A stretch of DNA of 64,000 nt from Roseibacillus persicicus (lineage in GTDB: Bacteria > Verrucomicrobiota > Verrucomicrobiia > Verrucomicrobiales > Akkermansiaceae), in NCBI RefSeq assembly GCF_014651675.1, contig NZ_BMXI01000009.1, forward strand, positions 62,001 to 126,000, given 5' to 3'. Positions 26,849-28,488 of the stretch are shown here, piece by piece. Both the position numbers and the translations under genes were made by a program. Position 1 is the stretch's first letter, and each line of letters opens with the position of its first letter. The notes under the pieces are model-generated. The model saw only the letters and a list, made by a program, of their open reading frames with translations. It was not told the origin of the DNA and ran no database searches.

Positions 26849-27226
26849 CTATTGATCGACTTTCTCGAAGGCTTTCTCAGGATGGTGTAAGAGTCGACCT
26901 CCCAAGATGATGGATGCGATGCCGAAGATGATTGGTCCGCGTCGAAGGCCATCGTCAGCATCGTCTCCGGCAAAGGTCAGGACGATAGCGATCAATCCCC
27001 CTGCGATGGCGAGGACGCCGACAAAGCGGGCCGCTTTCTTTGTTCCGTTTTTAGGTTTGGCGATTTGATAGGCTGTGCGGGCGCGGTAATACTCAAAGGC
27101 GAGGTCGTCTGCGGACAAAGCACCATGTAGACGGCTATGGGCGAATTCCCGCTCGATGGCCTCGAGTTCTTTTCCCTCGAAAACCAATTGGTTCACGCGA
27201 TCAGTCGCTTCTTCCTGACGGGTCAT
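26849..27226 (-). CDS. Small two-helix membrane protein
   Basis: A 125-residue protein from ATG 27226 (MTRQEEATDRV). The same frame can start at GTG 27262, adding 12 histidine-rich residues that look less protein-like. The first 70 residues are a soluble helical part. Two hydrophobic helices (about 73-93 and 101-116) follow, separated by an acidic loop (GDDADDGLRRG). Function not recognised. It is convergent with the lipoprotein gene. Confidence 0.55.
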   Translation of the reverse strand: MTRQEEATDRVNQLVFEGKELEAIEREFAHSRLHGALSADDLAFEYYRARTAYQIAKPKNGTKKAARFVGVLAIAGGLIAIVLTFAGDDADDGLRRGPIIFGIASIILGGRLLHHPEKAFEKVDQ

Positions 27227-27397
27227 TTCACTATCGTGCGAGTAGTGGTGGGTGGGACTCACCTCTCTATTCAGTCAGCAAAACCTGGCTTGCCGATCTG
27301 GCTTTTCCTCTTGGGAGAGAGATTTGGGCTTGTTGTCGATGGGCTCTTGGGAAAAGCTACCTCCATCATGCGCCTGAATCATCATTCCTGATTAGCA

Positions 27398-27553
27398 ACG
27401 GCCCGGAGGATTTCCGGAGCCGTGCCAACCATGATCCAGGCTTCCAAAAGTGAGGAAGCCAACCGGGAGCGAGGTCCGTCACGCAACGGACAGTCGTGCT
27501 CCCTTTCGAACAAGGGCTCACAAGGAGGAGCCCGAAGTCCTCCTTATTTTTTT
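27398..27553 (+). ncRNA. Structured leader RNA, candidate riboswitch/attenuator
   Basis: Successive stem-loops are visible. ACGGC-CCGGA/TCCGG-A-GCCGT spans 27398-27423. A perfect 7-bp GGCTTCC/GGAAGCC lies at 27439-27460. A two-part stem GGGAGC/GCTCCC encloses GTCCGT/ACGGAC at 27465-27503. CCCTT/AAGGG at 27501-27516 overlaps and competes with the previous arm, and a terminator ends the series. GGGCTC (27514-27519) can pair with GAGCCC (27528-27533), which would break the terminator. I compared it from memory with SAM, TPP, FMN, lysine, cobalamin, glycine, c-di-GMP, guanidine and ZTP consensus cores and found no match. The rest of the gene-free interval (27227-27397) shows nothing. Confidence 0.6.
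27522..27553 (+). terminator. Intrinsic terminator 5 nt before a start codon
   Basis: AAGGAGGA (27522-27529) pairs perfectly with TCCTCCTT (27538-27545) around an 8-nt loop, followed by A and seven T (27547-27553). The downstream ATG is at 27559, so only transcripts that escape this terminator can express that gene. Confidence 0.85.
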
Positions 27554-27558
27554 CAGGA

Positions 27559-28488
27559 ATGAAAACCACAGAATTACGCGAGGTGATCGCGTGTTTGCCG
27601 AAGGGGCGCACCCTCTATCGGTATGCGAAAGATGATTATGCCTTCCGGTTGTTAGGTCGTGCGGTGCAGAGCTGTGCCACCTTGGAAGAGTTGCGAGCTT
27701 CGCCTTATGGCAAGCTCTTGGAGAAGCCAGTGGTGAAAGACTGTATGGCACGGGGAAGCTCTGCCCAATGGTTCGGGCCGGGCTTCGGAGCCTATCGCGA
27801 GGGGCAGCAAACTTACCGCTTGTCTCTCGACGAGTGGGGCGGGGATGGTCAGCAGTGGAGCTGGCGACAGACGACCCGCCCTGGCAAGAGCTTGGTGCTG
27901 CAACTCAATCTAACAGGACGACATCATGAGTTGATGGTCGGGATGCTGGGGGACAAGGAATACGATCCTTTTCACTTCAGCTGCCATCCCGCGCGAAAGG
28001 GGCGCAATGCCACTTTGGCGTGGGCGCGTCTCGACTTCGACCTGGAGACACGGGAAGCGCTCATTGAAGAGATTCAGACTGACCGCTTGCGGGACGTCAG
28101 GGCTCTGATGCGTGAGCGCCCCTGCAAAGAGTGCGGGCGAATCCACTGGCACGGATATCGTCTCGATGCCCGCCAGGTGAAGCGCTTTTGGGAAGAAGAA
28201 ATGAAGCACCATGAAGCCATCTGGTCCGAGGCGATCCTAATGGCGTCCCTCGAATTTCTCTTTGGTGAGATTGGGGTTGAGAAGGTCTTCTATCATACCT
28301 TCGAGTTGGGTTGCCGCTTGAAGGGAATTACCGAAACCCGCCCTCCCAAGTCCCTCTACACCTCTTTGCCCAAGAAGTTCTGCTTTCGCGAGACGGGGGA
28401 GATTCCAGCCTTCTTGCGAGGGTCGCGCTTTCGCCGGAGAGAGTTGAAAAAGGTGGCGGAGGATTCCCGGTTCTTCGTGATGGATTAG
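27559..28488 (+). CDS. Conserved-looking protein of unknown function
   Basis: A 309-residue soluble protein that I do not recognise. It has no signal peptide or transmembrane helix. There is one CxxC pair in RPCKECGRIHWHGYRL that could be half of a metal site with nearby histidines, and a basic C-terminal tail (SRFRRRELKKV). An in-frame ATG exists at 27496, but it lies inside the leader hairpins; the ATG at 27559 directly after the terminator is preferred. Expression is probably controlled by the structured leader. lexA follows about 200 bp downstream with its own operator. Confidence 0.7.
   Translation: MKTTELREVIACLPKGRTLYRYAKDDYAFRLLGRAVQSCATLEELRASPYGKLLEKPVVKDCMARGSSAQWFGPGFGAYREGQQTYRLSLDEWGGDGQQWSWRQTTRPGKSLVLQLNLTGRHHELMVGMLGDKEYDPFHFSCHPARKGRNATLAWARLDFDLETREALIEEIQTDRLRDVRALMRERPCKECGRIHWHGYRLDARQVKRFWEEEMKHHEAIWSEAILMASLEFLFGEIGVEKVFYHTFELGCRLKGITETRPPKSLYTSLPKKFCFRETGEIPAFLRGSRFRRRELKKVAEDSRFFVMD

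Follow-up and report, generated by a model that had tools for sequence, protein, structure and literature searches.

How can a gene be expressed if an intrinsic terminator ends immediately upstream of its start codon? The question is raised by the window, as we call the whole 64,000-nucleotide stretch of the Roseibacillus persicicus contig NZ_BMXI01000009.1 analysed here, in which the T-rich tail ATTTTTTT of a terminator ends at position 27553 and is separated by five bases from the main ATG (27559-27561) of a gene encoding a 309-amino-acid protein. The sequence-only reading of this DNA had described the region 27398-27558 as a riboswitch-like leader that fits no classic aptamer, controls an unfamiliar gene and contains a terminator which must be prevented for that gene to be expressed.

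The stems and their positions given in that reading proved to be correct, as did the terminator with its U-tract close to the start codon. Furthermore, two of the stems are indeed mutually exclusive (GCTCCC at 27498-27503 pairs with the arm 27465-27471, and CCCTT at 27501-27505/AAGGG at 27512-27516 overlaps with it), and the alternative GGGCTC/GAGCCC pair overlapping the terminator was confirmed at 27514-27519/27528-27533. The leader folds with a stability z of about -5.5 in comparison with shuffled sequences (none of 200 shuffles was as good; z is -4.2 when folding begins at the leader ORF), and the sequence-only reading was right in seeing here a cis-regulatory leader with mutually exclusive stems and a terminator that has to be prevented for expression. 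What had been missed is the beginning of the element: its 5' end lies about 30 nucleotides before 27398 and includes a short leader ORF of seven codons and a stop (ATG, CGC, CTG, AAT, CAT, CAT, TCC and TGA). The end of this ORF is complementary to the region of the main start codon (P1; P = 0.0015 against shuffles). A second complementarity, of 10 bp (P = 0.0035 against shuffles), connects the antiterminator strand GGAGGATTTC with its partner GAAGTCCTCC (27534-27543) in the 3' arm of the terminator. The coordinates of all features are collected in Table 1. No consensus sigma-70 promoter was recognised in the window and no Shine-Dalgarno sequence before its leader ORF; TTGACA-type promoters are located ~24-27 nucleotides upstream of the leader ORF in four homologous loci (L006, L017, L046, L088). 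A 43-codon ORF on the plus strand (27431-27562) crosses the terminator region and overlaps the main start as ATGA; conservation of this ORF was not seen, and it could be a second upstream ORF or a product of chance.

Table 1. Features of the leader element and the gene downstream (positions in the window; P, pairing probability in the predicted fold)
Feature	Position	Strand	Remarks
Leader ORF ATGCGCCTGAATCATCATTCCTGA (MRLNHHS*), predicted sensor	27368-27391	+	Position and Met-Arg start kept in homologues
P1, 5' arm (last leader codons and stop)	27382-27391	+	Pairs with 27553-27562, P 0.98
Stem H1, sequesters the antiterminator segment in the off state	27395-27425	+	P 0.77-0.90
Antiterminator, 5' strand GGAGGATTTC, inside H1	27405-27414	+	With a ribosome at the leader end pairs with 27534-27543; P 1.0 with ribosome at stop
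Hairpin H2 (27439-27445:27454-27460)	27439-27460	+	P 1.00; stable in both states
Hairpin H3 (27465-27471:27497-27503; inner 27474-27479:27486-27491)	27465-27503	+	P 0.95-0.98; stable in both states
Alternative hairpin GGGCTC (27514-27519)/GAGCCC (27528-27533)	27514-27533	+	Forms together with the antiterminator; P 0.22 free, 1.00 with ribosome at stop
Intrinsic terminator, stem 27522-27529:27538-27545 and T-rich tail ATTTTTTT	27522-27553	+	P 0.76 free, 0.00 with ribosome at stop
P1, 3' arm, over the main start codon	27553-27562	+	Predicted fold
Regulated gene, 309 amino acids, undescribed RtcB-associated family, GNAT-like predicted fold	27559-28488	+

A ribosome footprint was stepped along the leader ORF, and the RNA was refolded at each position (equilibrium folding). 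H1 and the terminator form in RNA free of ribosomes and when any of codons 1-5 occupies the A site (terminator probability 0.76-0.89). When codon 7 (TCC) occupies it, the terminator drops to 0.12 and the antiterminator reaches 0.88, and with the stop codon in the A site the antiterminator is complete (1.00, compared with 0.01 in free RNA) and the terminator disappears. In both positions, the GGGCTC/GAGCCC pair joins the antiterminator. A full flip of this kind occurred in just two of 400 leaders with a shuffled middle. With the ribosome at the stop codon, the short H1 hairpin still folds first and needs to be displaced, which makes the predicted switching kinetically uncertain. The alternative of antiterminator and terminator in the window gives the element the layout of a leader-peptide attenuator.

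The leader ORF is not peculiar to this locus. A short ATG-initiated ORF of 6-15 codons, located at -145 to -225 from the main start, is present in 19 of 21 verrucomicrobial leaders, compared with 6.1 expected from shuffles (maximum of 12 in 300 shuffle sets), and in 11 of the 21 it begins with ATGCGY (Met-Arg), compared with 0.28 expected. The Met-Arg peptides include MRLNHHS (the window), MRLHPFP, MRLHRNPT, MRVPHSKP, MRVPYSKP, MRVLSSKP, MRVLIQNQNP and MRFLKNTTLPS, the last two belonging to distant members of the phylum (L115 and L114, respectively, both counted among the 21). One group of leaders, designated here group B, encodes MFVFINK, MFVLIDK, MFVNIDK, MLVFIIK and MSVFINK, and two Alphaproteobacteria possess an ORF at the corresponding place as well (MRVPLA* and MRACVG*). 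In group B, the codon changes in the frame of the ORF comprise 30 synonymous and 45 non-synonymous ones, compared with 2/66 and 10/63 in the other frames (column-shuffle P = 0.0015 for the excess of synonymous changes). Owing to the common descent of the leaders, the counts of leader ORFs are not independent observations; stronger evidence comes from the codon test and from the occurrence of the ORF in distant families. Two gammaproteobacterial loci (L041, L047) carry upstream ORFs that are preceded by a Shine-Dalgarno sequence, share the pattern MF..N..VTLLGLA and lie ~130-250 nucleotides before the gene; they are perhaps another type of leader peptide.

These data bear on the trivial explanation that the stems arose by chance, that the terminator is an ordinary one serving something upstream and that the leader ORF is coincidental. 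Short ORFs are common by chance, and a longer plus-strand frame (27137-27391) ends at the very same stop codon; however, the leader ORF is found three times as often as expected, the fold of the window leader is far outside the range of its shuffles (the mean z over 21 leaders, 19 verrucomicrobial and two alphaproteobacterial, is -3.3), and the likely upstream gene (26849-27262, minus strand) points away from the element. We regard a chance origin as extremely improbable.

Are the stems conserved as well, as the sequence-only reading had required? Within groups they are, with covariation: two-sided compensated changes occur in 13 of 40 consensus pairs in five group B leaders and in 3 of 30 pairs in four leaders from another group. 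Between groups the sequences diverge so much (mean identity 43%) that one alignment of all leaders fails, yielding neither a single structure nor a long common core, and a covariance model of group B matched none of the other groups except for a marginal match to L035. All groups share an arrangement in which the leader ORF is followed by the stems and these by the main ATG. Besides this order, a GTGCC motif recurs 21-137 nucleotides before the gene in 15 of 21 homologous leaders (3.7 expected), often within a GGGC-loop-GTGCCC hairpin. A further conserved feature might be an H-type pseudoknot, formed by GGGC and the terminator loop or, in group B, by CTGC/GCAG; it is a tentative candidate, its pairing being lost in L036. 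In the window, the bases of the pseudoknot candidate also serve the antiterminator. The window's genome has its relatives among the Akkermansiaceae/Verrucomicrobiales; a DNA search with the window leader in 38 related genomes found no close relative, the window alone being matched, and the covariation described here is that of homologous leaders.

The same comparison speaks to the proposal of a small-molecule riboswitch, in which the stems at 27395-27503 would form an aptamer and the ligand would choose between the terminator and the GGGCTC/GAGCCC antiterminator. The strong, compact structure and the presence of a terminator with an alternative pairing are what such a riboswitch would need, and the recurrent GTGCC could belong to its binding site. 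Nevertheless, no Rfam family matched at the gathering or at a relaxed threshold (the scan gave no more than two models of eukaryotic RNAs, both on the minus strand and with scores far under the threshold), as anticipated in the remark that no classic aptamer fits; no long core is conserved between groups; the conserved part is an ORF with a coding signature; and, in the predicted folding, masking the end of this ORF frees the antiterminator without any ligand. A riboswitch is thus unlikely, and the designation "riboswitch-like" is not supported: the homologous leaders keep a short 5' ORF rather than a common aptamer. For the same reason, a translating ribosome is the most likely sensor.

A stable structure with a terminator could also be an independent small RNA ending at that terminator, the downstream gene having its own promoter or not being served at all. 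We consider this very unlikely, as the gap between terminator and start codon is so short, the leader ORF is conserved, and the structured leaders that were read stand directly before homologues of the gene. A search of 254 genomes of the family with a covariance model built on one leader group detected no solo copies.

Control at the level of translation deserves more attention. Here, the progress of a ribosome on the leader ORF would open P1, which holds the main AUG, and the terminator would play a subordinate part in the window and be missing from most relatives. Indeed, P1 joins the region of the leader stop codon to the main start codon with high probability and a complementarity beyond that of shuffles, and, as judged by reading, the other verrucomicrobial leaders have no obvious U-tract terminator, the one in the window leader being the only one recognised. 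On the other hand, the terminator of the window is well formed and flips completely in the folding, and the opening of the main start region by a parked ribosome, taken across all leaders, was matched in 4 of 20 shuffled control sets and so does not go beyond chance. Translational control as the principal mechanism is therefore possible, though we do not favour it for the window; full switching is predicted for the window alone, and other leaders may act on translation or in a different way, given that they show no evident terminator and, taken together, no significant opening of the start region.

In the reading that we prefer and consider probable, the element is a leader-peptide-controlled transcription attenuator. 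Transcription would begin before the leader ORF. When ribosomes complete the leader and dissociate from it, or never load, H1 and the terminator would form and transcription would stop just before the gene; in RNA that is read through nevertheless, P1 would mask the main start codon. A ribosome that lingers when codon 7 or the stop codon has entered the A site would mask the base of H1, and the freed segment 27405-27414 would pair with 27534-27543 and GGGCTC with GAGCCC, so that the terminator is prevented, P1 is blocked and the gene product is made. The leader ORF with its conservation, the two predicted folds and the RtcB/PrfH surroundings of the homologues come from sequence and computation; we infer that the leader ORF is translated and that stalling on it is the signal. 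The signal would then be disturbed translation, i.e., slow elongation or release at the end of the leader, with drugs or damage to tRNA or rRNA as the presumed causes.

Which function would be induced in this way? The regulated gene is as unfamiliar as had been stated: its product belongs to no Pfam, NCBIfam or PADLOC family and has no relative in the PDB. It is sparsely distributed, occurring in 24 of 260 genomes searched in the family and in 8 of 388 throughout the phylum. Searches of plasmid, phage and viral-contig collections gave no match for the protein and thus no support for its carriage on mobile elements. Two related genomes (L029, L030) carry disrupted or incomplete copies of the gene that contain in-frame stops. 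The AlphaFold2 model of the protein is of high confidence (pLDDT 90.9); the structures that match it best are almost exclusively those of GNAT enzymes, with Z scores of 7-8.3 (middling by the tool's own scale), and Foldseek returned no match at E≤0.001. The CoA-binding [QR]xxGx[GA] loop after β4 is absent from that region in 76 of 78 members; its place is taken by E170, E171, Q173 and D175, which together with H143, R157, D159, K255 and Y267 are the invariant residues. We would call the protein GNAT-like in fold but not an acetyltransferase.

Of 200 loci of the gene confirmed in the genome collection, the best 80, mostly from Proteobacteria and Desulfobacterota, were kept, and 38 of these best 80 possess a homologue of the RNA ligase RtcB (of various subfamilies) within ~3 kb, mostly before the gene. 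In the verrucomicrobial locus L035 (leader ORF MLVFIIK), rtcB is located 14 bases downstream of the gene, and in two Desulfobulbaceae loci (L039 and L069, the latter from Desulfogranum japonicum) the order is RtcB, a PrfH-type release factor and the gene. Genes for RtcR, RlaP, RF-1/PrfH and Band_7 proteins are also found among the neighbours; RtcR and Band_7 proteins are linked to RtcB. In the window, no rtcB stands beside the gene; the genome carries RtcB genes elsewhere, one of them with a Band_7 gene (at ~96.8-99.2 kb of contig C3 of this genome, G000, corresponding to 1830-4236 of L121 on the minus strand, a Band_7-like gene is followed by a divergent RtcB gene). In several Alphaproteobacteria (L037, L042, L045, L061 and relatives), the gene is located near rsmB (16S rRNA methyltransferase) and guaA (GMP synthase), without rtcB. 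RlaP has been named in connection with RNA-repair systems, and RtcB-PrfH operons have been read as units of RNA-damage repair and ribosome rescue (PMC6514570, PMC9223846). Furthermore, Rtc expression in E. coli protects against ribosome-targeting drugs (PMC12606134). The RtcB-PrfH-gene operons may represent a three-gene repair and rescue unit, and the 309-amino-acid protein is likely an accessory protein of RtcB-type RNA repair. If so, the switch would sense disturbed translation and induce an RNA-repair function.

A more specific version of the attenuator model would be that the leader peptide reports slow termination, i.e., a ribosome waiting at the stop codon, and controls a new family working with RtcB and PrfH in the repair of ribosomes or tRNA, conserved across Verrucomicrobiota and possibly in Alphaproteobacteria. 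This idea is suggested by the predicted stall position in the window (codon 7 or stop) and the partnership with PrfH in two distant loci; slow release as the signal is speculation, and we put the whole proposal forward as a rather doubtful one.

The closest known system is the PA5471.1-armZ(-prfH) attenuator of Pseudomonas aeruginosa. Its leader peptide, PA5471.1, governs armZ, which is RtcB-like and located beside prfH, by transcription attenuation upon ribosome stalling; stalling also follows the loss of the tRNA-repairing enzyme Cca (PMC12057347, PMC13041342). In both cases, a short leader peptide precedes a gene of RtcB-PrfH-type repair, and full translation permits the terminator, whereas stalling prevents it (as predicted here). 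The likeness seen is one of mechanism and gene context, and the evidence is experimental there and computed here. In P. aeruginosa the first gene is the RtcB-like armZ itself; in the window, which comes from a different phylum, this place is held by the gene of a GNAT-like protein associated with RtcB. For PA5471.1, codons 3-4 have been implicated in stalling, whereas codon 7 or the stop codon is predicted here. The attenuators of trp, his and ilv operons likewise use a leader ORF on which the position of the ribosome selects antiterminator or terminator; the window leader, however, has no run of codons for one amino acid, and the gene is not biosynthetic. With the drug-inducible erm, cat, mef and msr leaders, the element shares a very short ORF whose 3' end lies within an inhibitory stem and, as predicted, induction by stalling, but the gene downstream is no known resistance gene here. 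The Met-Arg-Leu/Val starts of the leader peptides recall the MRLR arrest motif of ErmDL, which may serve as a lead only. Riboswitches with an intrinsic terminator have in common with the element the choice between terminator and antiterminator directly before the start codon; they differ from it in that here a conserved leader ORF is found in place of an Rfam aptamer or a long conserved aptamer core.

Since the window element differs from that of PA5471.1 in phylum and in first gene, it would be a further leader-peptide attenuator, attached to a new gene family. If this is true, the control of RtcB-type RNA repair by leader peptides is not confined to the single Pseudomonas locus known for it but extends to another phylum and another gene, and an uncharacterised, widely scattered family gains a likely pathway (RNA repair or ribosome rescue) together with a predicted inducing condition. 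Should the slow-termination reading hold, the leader would represent a sensor of RNA damage made of a ribosome and seven codons.
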